The translations under genes were made by a program, and so were the position numbers. Shown here in pieces: positions 45,103 through 50,600 of a DNA stretch of 64,000 bases (positions within the stretch are counted from its first letter, which is position 1; every line of letters begins with the position of its first letter). The stretch covers positions 1 to 64,000 of the forward strand of contig CAJTIT010000008.1 in the NCBI GenBank assembly GCA_910576345.1, written 5' to 3'. This DNA is from Erysipelotrichales bacterium (GTDB lineage: Bacteria; Bacillota_I; Bacilli_A; Erysipelotrichales; Erysipelotrichaceae). The notes under the pieces were generated by a model. That model searched no databases. It worked only from the letters and a program-made list of their open reading frames with translations, and was not told the origin of the DNA.

Positions 45103-45131
45103 TTGCAAATACCATCTTTTTGTATTATCAT
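45103..45131 (+). promoter_or_regulatory. Promoter of the aromatic biosynthesis operon
   Basis: TTGCAA (45103-45108), 17 bp, TATCAT (45126-45131). It lies 24 bases ahead of the leader peptide start and about 118 bases before the attenuator-like terminator. Confidence 0.65.
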
Positions 45132-45155
45132 ATTACCATTCAAGAGGTGATATCC

Positions 45156-45236
45156 ATGCACAAACCAATGGTTGATTATTATTATGCATTACTCCGATTA
45201 GAACCCATCGATCGCATGGATATTTTCACTTTCTAA
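45156..45236 (+). CDS. Tyr/Phe-rich leader peptide of the aro operon
   Basis: 26 codons behind AAGAGGTG (5-base spacing). Residues: MHKPMVD, then three consecutive Tyr (8-10), ALLRLEPIDRMDI, then Phe-Thr-Phe and TAA. Consecutive Tyr codons plus two Phe codons are what a ribosome-mediated attenuator sensing charged tRNA-Tyr/tRNA-Phe needs. A terminator hairpin begins 13 bases after its stop, and the operon for chorismate and tyrosine synthesis follows at 45304. The peptide itself is expected to have no function of its own. Confidence 0.75.
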   Translation: MHKPMVDYYYALLRLEPIDRMDIFTF

Positions 45237-45248
45237 TTGGAACCAAAC

Positions 45249-45282
45249 AAAAGCATCGCAAATTCAATTCGGTGCTTTTTTT
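45249..45282 (+). terminator. Attenuator terminator before aroB
   Basis: 10-bp stem AAAAGCATCG / CGGTGCTTTT (one U-G) with an 11-nt loop, and T run to 45282. It lies between leader peptide and aroB, so it should stop transcription when leader translation is not stalled. The competing antiterminator stem was not resolved by eye. Confidence 0.8.
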
Positions 45283-45303
45283 ATAAAAGAGATGGAGGTA
45301 TTT

Positions 45304-46314
45304 ATGATACTACACATGGATTTAGGGAAGAATAGTTATGACATCCTCATCAAAAAAGGATGCCTTCATGAAATCAAAGATCATATCGATCTACAACGTA
45401 ACGTGTTGATTGTCAGTGATGATGGTGTGCCTAACATCTATATTGAAGCCGTTCAAGCACAGTGTCCAAATGCTTTTGTTCATATCGTCAAACAAGGTGA
45501 AGGCGCAAAATCACTGTCCGTCTATCAGGAAATCTTAGAAACATTGCTCGAACACAAATTTTCAAGAAAAGATTTGATCATTGCTTTAGGCGGTGGCGTG
45601 GTGGGCGATCTTGCCGGATTTGTCGCTTCCTGTTATATGCGCGGCATCGCATTTATACAAGTGCCTACAACGACTCTTTCCCAAATCGATTCTTCCATTG
45701 GAGGAAAAGTCGCCATCAATCTCCATGAAGTAAAAAATATCATCGGCGCATTTTACCAGCCAAAAATGGTATTCGTTGATCCGGAAACACTTTGTACGTT
45801 GAGCAAACGTCATTATATCAACGGACTTGTGGAAGCATTAAAAGCAGGACTGATTTATGATCAAGAATTGTTTCACTTATTCGAACAGGAAGATATTGAA
45901 GCAAATATAGAAACGATCATTACCAAAGCGCTGTTTGTGAAAAAAACAGTGGTCGAACAAGACGAAAAAGAACAAAATTTACGGAAGATTTTAAATTTTG
46001 GTCATACCGTAGGTCACGCAATAGAAACAAGCTATCATTTACAAGAATTCTATCATGGAGAATGCGTCGCCTTGGGCATTCTTCCATTTATAGCGGATGA
46101 AGACATACGAAACAGAGTGCGAAGCATTTATCAAAAGCTGGGACTTCGCGATCATGTGCCGGCAAACATTGATCAATGGATGGACATTATGCGCAATGAT
46201 AAAAAAGCAGACAAGGATACCATTGATACGATATGGGTGCCTGCCATTGGTCATGCGGAAATCAAATCCATGACATTTGATGAAATCAGAAACTTATTGG
46301 AGAATACCTTATGA
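45304..46314 (+). CDS. aroB: 3-dehydroquinate synthase
   Basis: 336 residues. Converts DAHP to 3-dehydroquinate, second step of the shikimate pathway, with NAD and a divalent metal. Signature GGGVVGDLAGFVASCYMRGI (about 94-113), PTTTLSQIDSSIGGK (about 118-132) and the metal-site His in GHTVGHAIE (about 236-244). ATG 45304 with GGAGG in front; the earlier in-frame ATG (45292) lies on that site. First gene of aroB-aroC-aroF-aroA-tyrA; end overlaps aroC by 4 bp. Expression likely follows the leader-peptide attenuator. Confidence 0.97.
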   Translation: MILHMDLGKNSYDILIKKGCLHEIKDHIDLQRNVLIVSDDGVPNIYIEAVQAQCPNAFVHIVKQGEGAKSLSVYQEILETLLEHKFSRKDLIIALGGGVVGDLAGFVASCYMRGIAFIQVPTTTLSQIDSSIGGKVAINLHEVKNIIGAFYQPKMVFVDPETLCTLSKRHYINGLVEALKAGLIYDQELFHLFEQEDIEANIETIITKALFVKKTVVEQDEKEQNLRKILNFGHTVGHAIETSYHLQEFYHGECVALGILPFIADEDIRNRVRSIYQKLGLRDHVPANIDQWMDIMRNDKKADKDTIDTIWVPAIGHAEIKSMTFDEIRNLLENTL

Positions 46315-47435
46315 AAAATACAATAGGAAATCATATCAGCTGTACGATATTTGGCGAAAGTCATGGTGATGTTATCGGCATCGTCATGGATGGTCTGCCG
46401 CCAGGTATCACCATCGACATAGAACATCTACAAGCACAAATGGAAAAGCGCAAAGCCAAAGGTCGCATTTCCACACAGCGTCATGAAGATGATAGCGTAC
46501 ATATAACAAGCGGATATTTTGAAGGCAAAACCACCGGTACACCCTTAACGATTCTGATTGAAAACAAGGCGCAGCACTCACAAGACTATACGAAAACAAA
46601 AAACAGGCTGCGTCCGTCTCATGCGGATTATACAGCGGATGAAAAATATCTTGGCTTTCAAGATTATCGCGGCGGCGGCCATTTCTCCGGACGCATTACG
46701 GCACCTCTCGTTGCGGCAGGTGCCATTGCCTTACAAATACTGAAAACATATGGCATTCTCATTGGCACCCATATGGAAAACTGTCACGGTATACAAGATG
46801 ATGCATTTACACAGGACATAAAAAAACTAGAAACACAAATCAAACAAATGAGCACACAAGATTTTCCTGTTTTAAACGAAGAAAAAGGAAAACAAATGCG
46901 TGAAGAAATTGAAAATGCGGCTAAACAAGGGGATAGTGTCGGAGGAATACTGGAAAGTGCCATTATCCATCTCCCTACCGGTATCGGAGAACCATTCTTT
47001 GACTCTGTGGAAAGCGTGCTCGCCCATTATTTATACAGCGTTCCGGCTGTCAAAGGCGTATCATTTGGATTGGGATTTCAAAACGCATTCCTTTATGGAA
47101 GTGAAGCGAATGATCCAATCATGATGAGTGAACAAGGAATCACTACCAAAACCAATCACAATGCCGGTATCAATGGTGGCATTACAAACGGTATGCCGGT
47201 GATCATTCACACATGTATCAAGCCAACGCCTTCCATATACAAAGAACAAGAGACAGTAGATAAGAAGACGAAGAAAAGTGTTACGTTACAAATTCAAGGT
47301 CGTCACGACCCTGCCATTTTGCATCGTGCAAGCGTTGTCGTCGACAGCGTTCTTGCGTTAGGCATTCTGGATTTGATGATAGAAAGATTAGGAACATTAT
47401 CGATACAAAATAAAAGAAAAGAGGAATCACGATGA
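46311..47435 (+). CDS. aroC: Chorismate synthase
   Basis: 374 residues. Last step to chorismate, FMN-dependent. GESHGDVIGIVMDGLPPGI (about 12-30), the RP-type KRKAKGRISTQRHEDD (about 43-58), RGGGHFSGRITAPLVAAGAI (about 118-137) and GGITNGMPVI (about 289-298) are the family blocks. It is coupled to both neighbours by ATGA overlaps. Second gene in the operon although it acts last, a common order in Bacillota. Confidence 0.97.
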   Translation: MKNTIGNHISCTIFGESHGDVIGIVMDGLPPGITIDIEHLQAQMEKRKAKGRISTQRHEDDSVHITSGYFEGKTTGTPLTILIENKAQHSQDYTKTKNRLRPSHADYTADEKYLGFQDYRGGGHFSGRITAPLVAAGAIALQILKTYGILIGTHMENCHGIQDDAFTQDIKKLETQIKQMSTQDFPVLNEEKGKQMREEIENAAKQGDSVGGILESAIIHLPTGIGEPFFDSVESVLAHYLYSVPAVKGVSFGLGFQNAFLYGSEANDPIMMSEQGITTKTNHNAGINGGITNGMPVIIHTCIKPTPSIYKEQETVDKKTKKSVTLQIQGRHDPAILHRASVVVDSVLALGILDLMIERLGTLSIQNKRKEESR

Positions 47436-48451
47436 TTATTACAATGAAAAAACAAACACCGAAAGAAGAAATCGATGCGTTGATGAGCCGATTGGACGCA
47501 AAAGGTTTGCGCATTCATTCCAGTATTGGCGAAAACTACAACGTGTTTGGCTTGGTAGGAGATACATCCGTCATCGACCCCAAACAAATTGAGGCAAATC
47601 CTTATGTGGAAAGCGTTGTTCGCGTCGCTGCGCCATATAAAAAAGCAAACCGTCTGTTTCATCCGGAAGACACGATTGTAAACATTGGCGGTATTCCAAT
47701 CGGTGGTAAAGAAGATCTTGTGGTCATTGGCGGTCCTTGTTCCATCGAAGGAAAAGAAAGCACCGTCGCTATCGCAAAAGCTGTCAAAGAAGCTGGCGGA
47801 TGCATGTTACGAGGCGGTGCATATAAACCAAGAACTTCTCCATATGCATTCCAAGGCATGGGAACCGAAGGCATCTTGGCAATGGTGGAAGCACGAAAAG
47901 AAACAGGTCTTCCCATCGTATCGGAACTCATGAGCACTGATAAATTAGATGAATTCGTAGAATACGTCGATTGTATTCAAATTGGCGCTAGAAACATGCA
48001 GAATTTCGATTTGTTGAAAGCCGTTGGCAAAGTCCAAACGCCTGTATTGTTAAAACGTGGCTTGGCCAATACCATTGAAGAATGGATCATGGCAGCGGAA
48101 TATATCATGTCAGAAGGCAATCAAAATGTCATCTTCTGCGAAAGAGGGATTCGCACCTTTGAAAAGTATACAAGAAACACGCTGGATTTAAGCGTCATTC
48201 CCATTATCAAAGAAAAAACACACTTGCCTATCATCATTGATCCAAGTCATGCGACCGGTGATTGGAAACTTGTGGAATCGATGTCACTTGCCGCAATCGC
48301 TGCCGGCGCCGATGGATTGATCATCGAAGTCCATGAAAATCCGGAATGTGCATGGTCTGATGGCGCACAGTCACTGAAGCCAAACCGTTTTGCGGAAGTC
48401 ATTGAAAAAGGACGCACCATTGCACAAGTCATTGGGAGGGGCATCGTATGA
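47432..48451 (+). CDS. aroF: DAHP synthase, type I-beta with N-terminal regulatory domain
   Basis: 339 residues. First step of the pathway (PEP + erythrose-4-phosphate to DAHP). A ferredoxin-like (FL) regulatory domain occupies about 1-75 (HSSIGENYNVFGLVGDTSVI), and the TIM-barrel holds VVIGGPCSIEGKE (about 91-103), GGAYKPRTSPYAFQGMG and IIDPSHATG (about 268-276). In Thermotoga and related enzymes the FL domain gives Tyr/Phe feedback inhibition, so the operon would be controlled both by attenuation and allostery (inference). The gene symbol follows common usage; aroG is also used. Confidence 0.92.
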   Translation: MIITMKKQTPKEEIDALMSRLDAKGLRIHSSIGENYNVFGLVGDTSVIDPKQIEANPYVESVVRVAAPYKKANRLFHPEDTIVNIGGIPIGGKEDLVVIGGPCSIEGKESTVAIAKAVKEAGGCMLRGGAYKPRTSPYAFQGMGTEGILAMVEARKETGLPIVSELMSTDKLDEFVEYVDCIQIGARNMQNFDLLKAVGKVQTPVLLKRGLANTIEEWIMAAEYIMSEGNQNVIFCERGIRTFEKYTRNTLDLSVIPIIKEKTHLPIIIDPSHATGDWKLVESMSLAAIAAGADGLIIEVHENPECAWSDGAQSLKPNRFAEVIEKGRTIAQVIGRGIV

Positions 48452-49734
48452 ACAAATTGATCACGCCTGGTATATGTAGTGGTCAAGTTCACATTCCGCC
48501 AAGCAAAAGCATGGCGCATCGCTCGATCATCTGTGCTGCGCTGGCAAAAGGAAAAAGTCGGATTGACAATATTGATTATTCCAAAGATATCGATACCACC
48601 ATTGAAGGCATGCGTGCATTGGGCGCAGAAATTACATTGCACGATGATTTCATTGAAATCGACGGCATTAAAGATTTCAAACATTTAAAAAGTACAGAAA
48701 TATTCTGTAATGAATCCGGATCGTCACTGCGATTTTTCCTGCCTATCTTTTCATTAAGTGAACAAACCATTACCTTTACCGGCGCAGGCAGACTTATGGA
48801 GCGTCCGCAGAATGTATATGAAGATCTGTTTCATGAACTTGGACTGACCTTTATACATACTGCAGAGTCAATCACAATCAAAGGCGCCATTCAAAGCGGT
48901 GACTATGTTCTGGATGGCAATGTTTCCAGTCAATTCATCAGCGGATTGTTATTTGCGCTTCCTTTATGTAAAGGCAATTCCACCATCACCATCAAAAAAC
49001 CGTTTGAATCAAAATCGTATGTCGATTTAACAATGCAGATGTTGGAATACTTTGGTGTTGAAACAGATTTCAGTGATGATCATACTATATATATCAAAGG
49101 CAACCAGTCGTATCATGCAGGATGTTATACTGTAGAAGGCGATTATTCACAATTTGCATTCTTTGCCGTATTGGCTGCGCTCAACCATGATCTTACCGTC
49201 ACCGGCGTATCAAAAGCAACACGTCAAGGAGATCAAGCCATCATCGACATATTAAAACAAGCCAATGTAGAAATCGAAGATGTGCATGATGGTTTTCTGA
49301 TACATAAAAGCGATGTGACAGGGTGTGAAATTGACTTGGCTGATTGTCCTGATTTGGGACCAATTCTTTGTGTTTTGGGCGCTTTCGCAAAAGGCAAGAC
49401 ACATATTCGTAATGCCGGCAGACTGCGTCTAAAAGAAAGTGATCGTATTTTGGCGATGGAAAGTGAATTGCGTAAGCTAGGTGTGGAAATAAGATCCTGC
49501 GAACAAGACATTACCATAACTGGCAAACATTTGGATCAGTGCCGCGGTGTGAAAGATCAAATTCTTGCATTTGACTCCCATAACGATCATCGCATTGCGA
49601 TGAGTATGTCCGTTGCCGCAACCCTTTGTCAAAGCCGTAGTTTTATCGTTCATGCCGAATCTGTAAACAAATCCTATCCGCAATTTTTCGATGATTTGCG
49701 CCGCATTGGAATCGAGGTATCAGATGTCTTATGA
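48448..49734 (+). CDS. aroA: 5-enolpyruvylshikimate-3-phosphate synthase
   Basis: 428 residues. Joins PEP and shikimate-3-phosphate. PPSKSMAHRSIICAALAKGK (about 16-35, the PSKS(x)xxR block with substrate Lys), NESGSSLRFFLP (about 90-101) and RLKESDRILAMESELRKLG (about 331-349), plus FDSHNDHRIAMSMSVAA (about 372-388). Both inverse-alpha/beta halves are complete. The segment NESGSSLRF in place of NAGTAMRP is that of class II enzymes, generally less glyphosate-sensitive. Overlaps aroF and tyrA by 4 bp each. Confidence 0.97.
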   Translation: MNKLITPGICSGQVHIPPSKSMAHRSIICAALAKGKSRIDNIDYSKDIDTTIEGMRALGAEITLHDDFIEIDGIKDFKHLKSTEIFCNESGSSLRFFLPIFSLSEQTITFTGAGRLMERPQNVYEDLFHELGLTFIHTAESITIKGAIQSGDYVLDGNVSSQFISGLLFALPLCKGNSTITIKKPFESKSYVDLTMQMLEYFGVETDFSDDHTIYIKGNQSYHAGCYTVEGDYSQFAFFAVLAALNHDLTVTGVSKATRQGDQAIIDILKQANVEIEDVHDGFLIHKSDVTGCEIDLADCPDLGPILCVLGAFAKGKTHIRNAGRLRLKESDRILAMESELRKLGVEIRSCEQDITITGKHLDQCRGVKDQILAFDSHNDHRIAMSMSVAATLCQSRSFIVHAESVNKSYPQFFDDLRRIGIEVSDVL

Positions 49735-50600
49735 AACCAACATTCAATAAGAACTTACGATTTTTAGTTGTCGGACTTGGTTTAATGGGTGGTAGTTATG
49801 CCTATGCGTTAAGCAAGCGTGGTTTTCAAGTATACGCTATTGATATTCAGCCAAAAACCATCGCTTATGCTAAAAAAAGCGGTTTGATAAAAGATGGCGC
49901 CGTTATGGATGTAGATCTTATTCGACAAGCTGACGTCATTCTATTTGGTTTGTATCCTAATGCAATGGTGGATTGGATCAAAACATATCAAGAGTACATG
50001 CGGCCAAATACACTGATTTCTGATGTCGCAGGTGTGAAACATCGCATTGTGGAAACCATCCAGTCATTCTTGCGTGATGATGTGGAATTCATCGCATCAC
50101 ATCCCATGGCTGGAAAAGAAGTCAGCGGTGTGGAACATGCTAATGACGAAATGTTTCAACAAGCAAATTTCATCATTACGCCTACAGAAAAAAACAGTGA
50201 AGCGGCCATTGCTTTTATGAAACAGTTTGCGAAGGAACTGGATTTTGCGAATATTTCTATTTTATCTTGTGAAAAACATGATGAAATGATCGGTTATGTA
50301 TCACAGCTTACGCATGTGATTGCCATCAGTTTGATGAATGCGAATGACGATCCGGATCTTGTTCATTATACCGGCGATAGTTTTCGCGATTTAACACGCA
50401 TCGCACGAATCAACGAAAACTTATGGACGGAACTGTTTTTCTTAAACAAGGAAAATCTAATGAAAGAAATCGATGATTTTACTGATGCACTTTTAAAACT
50501 GAAGCAAACGTTAAAGGAAGAAGACACAGATACATTAAAACAAATGATGATTCTTTCCACACAGCGAAGAAAACTGTTTGACAAACCTAAAAAAAGATAA
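49731..50600 (+). CDS. tyrA: Prephenate dehydrogenase
   Basis: 289 residues. Oxidises prephenate to 4-hydroxyphenylpyruvate for tyrosine synthesis. NAD-binding VVGLGLMGGSYAYALSKRGF (about 13-32), HPMAGKEVSGVEHA (about 123-136) with the catalytic His, and a helical dimer domain in the C-terminal half. No ACT domain. Last gene of the operon, which ends at the hairpin 50617-50643. A Tyr-specific enzyme at the end agrees with the three Tyr codons in the leader peptide. Confidence 0.95.
   Translation: MKPTFNKNLRFLVVGLGLMGGSYAYALSKRGFQVYAIDIQPKTIAYAKKSGLIKDGAVMDVDLIRQADVILFGLYPNAMVDWIKTYQEYMRPNTLISDVAGVKHRIVETIQSFLRDDVEFIASHPMAGKEVSGVEHANDEMFQQANFIITPTEKNSEAAIAFMKQFAKELDFANISILSCEKHDEMIGYVSQLTHVIAISLMNANDDPDLVHYTGDSFRDLTRIARINENLWTELFFLNKENLMKEIDDFTDALLKLKQTLKEEDTDTLKQMMILSTQRRKLFDKPKKR

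Follow-up and report, generated by a model that had tools for sequence, protein, structure and literature searches.

The trp, his and pheA attenuators of enterobacteria combine an ORF rich in the amino acid made by the pathway with tandem hairpins, the second of which is the terminator, and T-box leaders sense uncharged tRNA directly. The descriptions closest to the system considered here come from four reports. One of them covers the his attenuator mechanism of enterobacteria as well as candidate His attenuators in six Erysipelotrichales species, the Bacillus cereus group and Peptostreptococcaceae (PMC9413887), and another describes a His leader in bacilli (PMC2965389). For the ilv-leu operon of S. 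aureus, a leucine-rich attenuator peptide that is backed by mutants and promoter activity has been reported (PMC5794164). Finally, a report on Acholeplasma lists uORFC-13-1 before aroF, a candidate Phe uORF with promoter, ribosome site and terminator that is represented by 24 sequences (PMC8632094).

We considered how a leader in front of an aroB operon of the Erysipelotrichaceae compares with these systems. The leader lies in a stretch of 64,000 nucleotides, referred to here as the window, from a genome of 2.83 Mb (G000). Like the trp, his and pheA leaders, it has a short, amino-acid-rich ORF and tandem hairpins, the second being the terminator, directly before an operon. Unlike them, leaders of the window's type (type I below) normally have the leader stop codon before the first hairpin and are without a covarying segment that pairs with a terminator arm, and both the sequences and the genes are different. 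With the His attenuators of the same order it shares tandem regulatory codons directly before the attenuator and terminator hairpins (PMC9413887), but theirs are His codons in front of his genes (PMC9413887, PMC2965389). The S. aureus ilv-leu leader is also a case of leader-peptide attenuation in Bacillota, but it has Leu and Ile codons and precedes a branched-chain operon (PMC5794164). We set uORFC-13-1 apart by its description, which involves aroF only and at least one Phe, whereas the leaders described here carry Tyr/Phe runs, belong to another family and precede aroB, aroE, aroF and transporter genes. A literature search that covered few subscription journals and no supplements did not turn up any account of a leader regulon for Tyr/Phe in Erysipelotrichaceae. 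As far as the literature was searched, this is a conserved leader-peptide attenuator of a known general kind that is new for the pathway and the family. The view in the original prediction that a peptide attenuator would be unusual in Bacillota holds, and it is tempered by the precedents of the His and Leu leaders and the Phe uORF before aroF.

The elements that led to the original prediction, namely a promoter, a ribosome site, a 26-codon ORF with three consecutive Tyr codons and two Phe codons, and an intrinsic terminator, are all present in the sequence and stand in this order before a five-gene aromatic operon ending in tyrA, whose gene identities are now given by Pfam and NCBIfam (Table 1). 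The locus thus has the arrangement that defines a leader-peptide attenuator, an ORF with a ribosome site and predicted translation between promoter and terminator, before an operon. The promoter-like site alone proves little, as a scan of 701 bases on both strands returned 10 such sites where 2.9 are expected. The terminator hairpin was overlooked by a simple terminator scan and was found by folding; the region 45240-45295 folds at -10.1 kcal/mol, a value equalled by 7 of 200 shuffles. The upstream hairpin V:X, with 11 pairs and -13 kcal/mol in the window, is equalled by 1 of 200. The start of aroB is probably at 45304, with GGAGG at 45294-45298, rather than at the mechanically assigned 45292. 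We consider it highly likely that the leader is a Tyr-sensing (in relatives, Tyr/Phe-sensing) leader-peptide attenuator of the aroB operon, and progress of the ribosome on the leader ORF very probably reports the supply of Tyr and Phe.

Table 1. Features of the aroB leader and operon in the window, and of the second leader in the same genome
Feature	Position	Strand	Basis or remark
Promoter-like site TTGCAA-17-TATCAT	45103..45131 (TTGCAA 45103-45108, TATCAT 45126-45131)	+	9/12 consensus matches
Ribosome site AAGAGGTG of leader ORF	45142-45149	+	
Segment U, leader ribosome site and start codon, complementary to W	45146..45160	+	covariation, duplex energy
Leader ORF, 26 codons, MHKPMVDYYYALLRLEPIDRMDIFTF	45156..45236	+	relatives have aromatic mini-ORFs in this position
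Three tandem Tyr codons (TAT TAT TAT), presumed stall site	45177..45185	+	Tyr/Phe run here in relatives
Whole element, match to covariance model R2	45177..45284	+	91.6 bits, E 2.2e-11 (R2 was built from 12 sequences, the window among them)
Segment V, 5' arm of hairpin V:X, 11 pairs with X	45193..45203	+	folding, covariation
Segment W, inner stretch CGCATGGATATTTTCACTT, alternative partner of U	45213..45231	+	
Two Phe codons of leader ORF	45225-45227, 45231-45233	+	
Segment X, 3' arm of V:X, holds leader stop TAA (45234-45236)	45231..45241	+	folding, covariation
Intrinsic terminator, hairpin 45249-45279 and U-tract	45249..45282	+	folding; arms covary in 31 type I leaders
aroB, 3-dehydroquinate synthase, first operon gene	45304..46314	+	Pfam, NCBIfam (TIGR01357)
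aroC, chorismate synthase	46311..47435	+	Pfam, NCBIfam
aroF, DAHP synthase with ferredoxin-like domain	47432..48451	+	Pfam, NCBIfam
aroA, EPSP synthase	48448..49734	+	Pfam, NCBIfam
tyrA, prephenate dehydrogenase	49731..50600	+	PF02153, PF20463; NCBIfam matches under cut-offs
L340 leader	upstream of G000:C6:73115-73624	minus	aroE copy in own genome

The attenuator reading draws its support from conserved Tyr/Phe runs, the terminator, covarying helices and copies of the element at other shikimate genes. The upstream regions of aroB homologues were searched for mini-ORFs of 7-32 codons that start 110-260 bases before the gene and contain at least four Tyr/Phe within seven residues, at least two of them Tyr. 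Such an ORF precedes aroB in 74 of 130 Erysipelotrichaceae regions (73 of 129 genomes, the 130 regions including one contig twice, as L032 and L109; seven of the 137 family genomes with an aroB match were not included, and L101 has too short an upstream region). Under the same criterion, dinucleotide shuffles gave a mean of 6.85 and a maximum of 10 over 20 rounds, the reverse strand gave 4, and the sister family of the order gave 1 of 26. When a ribosome site is required as well, 35 of 158 regions from both families and one outsider qualify, compared with a shuffle mean of 2.75 and a maximum of 6. The remaining 56 of the 130 family regions have no such ORF by this criterion, and the window (leader L002) is among them, its own ORF falling below the threshold with 3 aromatic residues in 7.

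Comparison of leaders from relatives shows that the Tyr/Phe run is kept while the rest of the mini-peptide differs. Examples of the peptides are MRKNAYFYYYE, MHNKGYYYYR, MHTSKFYYFYYE, MKTVKYYYYYYFR, MNQTACTYFYFYYR and MKTQMFFFYYFR; the aromatic run near the stop is constant, peptide length and the other residues are variable, and beyond the genus little else is common to them. Both Tyr codons are used in the family leaders (TAT 143, TAC 88). Taken together, the retained run, the variable remainder and the use of both codons fit a codon-reading device rather than a functional peptide. A promoter-like pair with at least 8 of 12 consensus matches precedes the start codon in 70 of 72 leaders, window included, in a lenient search run without a shuffled control. 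In 12 leaders the start codon lies 6 bases 3' of the -10-like box (seen by eye in, e.g., L149, L164, L165 and L184), a spacing that suggests that some leader mRNAs are probably leaderless.

From 77 leader candidates, 36 were placed in one alignment (A1), corresponding to a sister group of leaders that we call type II, and 24 in another (A2), corresponding to type I. Left out of both were the outliers L023, L026, L102, L104 and L105, the duplicates L109, L172, L181, L194 and L198, the doubtful ORFs L064, L092, L096, L136, L185 and L204, and L010, which has no terminator by the scripted search. In type I leaders, the start of V:X coincides with the leader stop or lies immediately 3' of it; within V:X sits a short inner hairpin with a U-rich tract, and the terminator comes next. 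V lies directly 3' of the leader stop in all type I leaders except L011 and the window, where it lies inside the ORF. The V:X partners of the same leader pair at -13.8 kcal/mol, compared with -7.7 kcal/mol (sd 0.87) when partners are exchanged, and 0 of 10000 exchanges reach the former value. This permutation used 20 of the 24 A2 sequences, near-duplicates having been dropped, and retained L011 although it was misplaced (rank 21 of 23); L011 was omitted from later tests. Partner exchange on 31 type I leaders, including those before aroE and aroF (31 of 37, again with near-duplicates dropped), gave 0 of 5000. In a third alignment of 12 sequences that includes the window (A3), 98.8% of V:X cells are paired, and both sides have changed in 5 of 7 pairs. 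When the A3 structure is taken as a whole, its percentage paired and its covariation score are reached by 0 of 500 shuffles, its number of pairs changed on both sides by 19 of 500, and its number of pair types by 393 of 500. RNAalifold applied to A2 finds the terminator only.

The original prediction had left the antiterminator helix to folding. Such a helix appears in the sister-group copies (below), but among leaders of the window's type covariation was absent from every tested pairing of V, W, X or the 3' end of X with an arm of the terminator, the lowest count being 467 of 5000 for V with the 5' arm. When truncated transcripts of the window were folded, only weak antiterminator pairings were found, the best at -4.6 to -5.2 kcal/mol with V masked. 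We also folded transcripts with the ribosome as a mask. The terminator probability is 1.00 in all four ribosome states in the window and mostly 0.8-1.0 in other type I leaders, with exceptions in L164 (0.02 at the last Tyr, 0.06 at the stop) and, without a ribosome, in L016, L131, L149 and L168 (about 0), L146 (0.24) and L165 (0.57). Between a ribosome at the last Tyr codon and one at the stop, the terminator probability shifts by at least 0.1 in 0 of 24 type I leaders, and the weak pairings between the terminator arm and upstream sequence are more probable with the ribosome at the stop in 12 of 24 leaders and more probable at the last-Tyr stall in 1 of 24. The masked folding and the lack of a covarying partner for either arm argue against a classical antiterminator in type I.

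In the window's group a second helix competes with V:X. Segment U, which contains the leader ribosome site and start codon, forms a duplex with W (GGUGAUAUCCAUGCA with CGCAUGGAUAUUUUCACUU) that at -18.4 kcal/mol in the window is the strongest of 14 tested, and U:W and V:X are mutually exclusive. Partner exchange of U and W gave 0 of 20000 both for 14 type I aroB leaders and for the 11 that remain without near-duplicates. Taken singly, the true partner ranks first to third in 8 of the 14 (L002-L008 and L097; six of these are from one genus, which means fewer events than sequences) and does not in L009, L010, L012, L015, L098 and L099. The idea that U:W is general to all type I leaders was rejected, given these six single failures among the aroB leaders and a count of 2701 of 20000 for the aroE/aroF set.

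In masked folding of the window transcript up to the terminator, a ribosome at the first Tyr codon gives V:X a probability of 0.89 and U:W one of 0; the values are 0.01 and 0.73, respectively, when no ribosome is present, and both are 0 when the ribosome is at the stop. Among the 11 leaders examined, L003, L004, L005, L006 and L008 go from V:X at 0.69-0.96 at the first Tyr to U:W at 0.73-0.83 at the stop, L009 and L097 switch likewise but more weakly, and no such switch is seen in L012, L015 and L098. With the ribosome at the last Tyr, U:W rather than V:X is favoured in the window and in L003, L004, L005, L006 and L008, and without a ribosome L003, L009, L012, L015 and L098 favour V:X. These folding series mark V:X as the early-stall structure of the window's group and predict that in the window V:X and U:W are alternative helices switched by ribosome position.

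The sister-group, type II leaders present a different architecture. The 36 leaders of A1 show X paired with V (V:X), with W (W:X) or with the terminator, besides the terminator hairpin and an inner hairpin by which W is locked. In this type the ORF ends in V, whose usual sequence, UUU AGA UAR, accounts for the recurring Phe-Arg-stop. Since one member and the consensus served as the source of the structures, and since the sequences are related, the shuffle counts that follow are not probabilities: V:X plus terminator have 91.8% of cells paired and 11 of 17 pairs changed on both sides, values reached by 0 of 500 shuffles (55 of 500 reach the number of pair types); the inner hairpin plus X:terminator have 90.7% paired and 7 of 14 pairs changed on both sides, with 0 of 500 on every measure; and W:X has 84.1% paired and 5 of 10 pairs changed on both sides, with 1 to 3 of 500. 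Unaided, RNAalifold finds only the terminator in these leaders as well. When the ribosome mask, with a footprint of 13 bases from the A site, is placed at the last Tyr rather than at the stop, upstream pairing of the terminator arm rises by at least 0.1 in 26 of 36 type II leaders and falls in 0, and the terminator probability falls in 15 of 36 and rises in 0. The model that this suggests is one in which V (the final codons of the leader), W and the terminator are alternative partners of X, and a ribosome stalled on the last Tyr codon would free X, by which the terminator would be opened.

For the window's type, we propose a mechanism built on elements read directly from the sequence, namely the ORF with its aromatic run, the covarying V:X and terminator, U:W in the window's group, the identity of the operon and the sister copies. 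Transcription would start directly after 45131, and a ribosome would load on the mini-ORF. With Tyr-tRNA scarce, this ribosome would stall at the Tyr codons; a stall at the first of them would cover U, keep W from U and so allow V:X to form. A ribosome that reaches the stop codon would instead cover V in relatives, or W and X in the window, and V:X would be blocked. Because V:X is the early-stall structure, we infer that it favours read-through and that its absence lets the terminator act. A more specific version, which we advance tentatively and regard as rather unlikely, is that type I is an attenuator without a classical antiterminator in which V:X, formed behind RNA polymerase, itself lowers termination, and U:W is a competing, self-silencing OFF state. 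If this were true, the family would have two switching circuits, types I and II, for one regulon. With two covarying aroB architectures in one family, one with a classical antiterminator and one with none visible, the action of a leader hairpin on an adjacent terminator is directly testable.

The window copy has peculiarities that bear on whether the element still responds there. In comparison with its genus (L003-L007), the window is without a stop codon before V and has a shorter Tyr/Phe run, and its ORF continues across V and W and ends at a TAA within X. The two Phe codons sit in this part of the ORF, which is absent from near relatives, and are thus probably not regulatory here. The extended ORF, when near relatives stop before V, and the presence of only 3 aromatic residues in 7 would be expected if the family element were real but had decayed in the window's species to an unresponsive form with fixed read-through of the operon. 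Such decay is the main rival to a working attenuator, but we find it improbable, because V:X is intact, with all 11 pairs and compensating differences from relatives, U:W is the strongest of those tested, and the terminator is also intact. Moreover, with the stop inside X, a finishing ribosome would sit on both W and X, which could keep the switch working, and the masked folding in which V:X goes from 0.89 at the first Tyr to 0 at the stop is in line with this.

Three other explanations appear less probable still. In the minimum free energy fold, the region of the aroB ribosome site (45289-45307) is paired with 45215-45235, as would be expected if W or X hid that site unless the leader is translated; but this fold has an ensemble frequency of 0.0004, the centroid lacks the pairing, the scheme needs transcripts that have passed the terminator, and the covarying partner of W is the leader's own ribosome site, all of which make translational control very improbable. 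It is harder still to credit that the mini-ORF encodes a functional small protein with the terminator being its own: the ribosome site is good and the ORF has 26 codons, yet peptides beyond the genus vary in length and sequence with the aromatic run as their common part, and a search of the window's own genome with the peptide matched only itself. Least credible of all is control of the operon by a T-box or another known riboswitch, with the ORF present by chance. T-boxes are common in this genome, with 19 matches of which 11 exceed the family cut-off, but no Rfam family reaches its gathering score in the whole window, including T-box RF00230, or in leader L002 or the aroE leader L340; the T-box specifically named as the alternative in the original prediction is thus absent at this score.

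The element is not confined to aroB. The window's own genome contains a second aromatic leader, MTIHSAIPFYFIFQ (L340), in which a V:X hairpin and a terminator precede aroE. The covariance model R2 was built from A3, and 29 of 272 family genomes contain a match to it at E <= 0.05. Outside aroB, its matches include aromatic leaders before aroE-like genes in L304, L308, L313, L322-L324, L326-L329 and L331, and before aroF-like genes in L307, L309, L310, L312 and L315, where the names rest on Pfam for two aroE-like proteins and one aroF-like protein and on similarity judged by eye for the others. In L325, also an R2 match before an aroE-like gene, the contig begins within the leader. No aromatic leader accompanies the matches L316, L330, L332 and L333, which were regarded as chance.

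A second model, R1, was built from A1; at E <= 0.01 it has matches in 69 of 315 genomes of the order. Its matches are mostly its own aroB leaders, and the weaker ones include chance matches and lysine riboswitches. Off aroB, R1 finds an aromatic leader before an aroF-tyrA pair in L236 (genes named by eye) and leaders with FFFFF, YYYY or YYYFYY before TrpX-like substrate-binding/ABC transporter genes in L239, L240, L245, L260 and L261, which belong to genera g77 and g47. The TrpX-like designation is based on PF04392 for L239, L240 and a fragment in L245, and on NF041285 matches under cut-off for L239 and L240. Matches L319, L321, L243, L247, L248, L250, L252, L254-L257 and L259 have no aromatic leader and were set aside as chance. 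Those in L237 (2315-2481) and L244 (1656-1821), before amino acid ABC transporter genes, are lysine riboswitches, and L238, L249, L251 and L258, which look similar to L237/L244, were dropped with them by resemblance. For L246 and L253, R1 matches before an aroC-like gene in two g32 genomes, no convincing leader ORF was found.

These copies extend leader-peptide attenuation, which has been described mainly in proteobacteria, to a regulon for aromatic amino acids (the aroB operon, aroE, aroF and TrpX-like uptake) in a family of Bacillota. The pheA gene of the window's genome has no aromatic leader by the criterion used. In the same genome tyrS is preceded by a T-box over the cut-off, and pheS by one below it. 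The T-box serves the same physiological task at tyrS and has no counterpart at the aroB locus, and the genome keeps it beside leader-peptide control.

At the level of the class, 7 of 395 genomes have an R1 match, and 3 of the 7 lie outside the family (L318, L319 and L321); L319 and L321 have neither an aromatic nor a His leader. In L318, from another family, a mini-ORF with WHHHF lies about 600 bases before a PF13393 gene, together with an R1 match. The mini-ORF and the R1 match fall at 1501-1616 and 1703-1984, with group II intron domains (Rfam) between them. L318 is perhaps a His leader.
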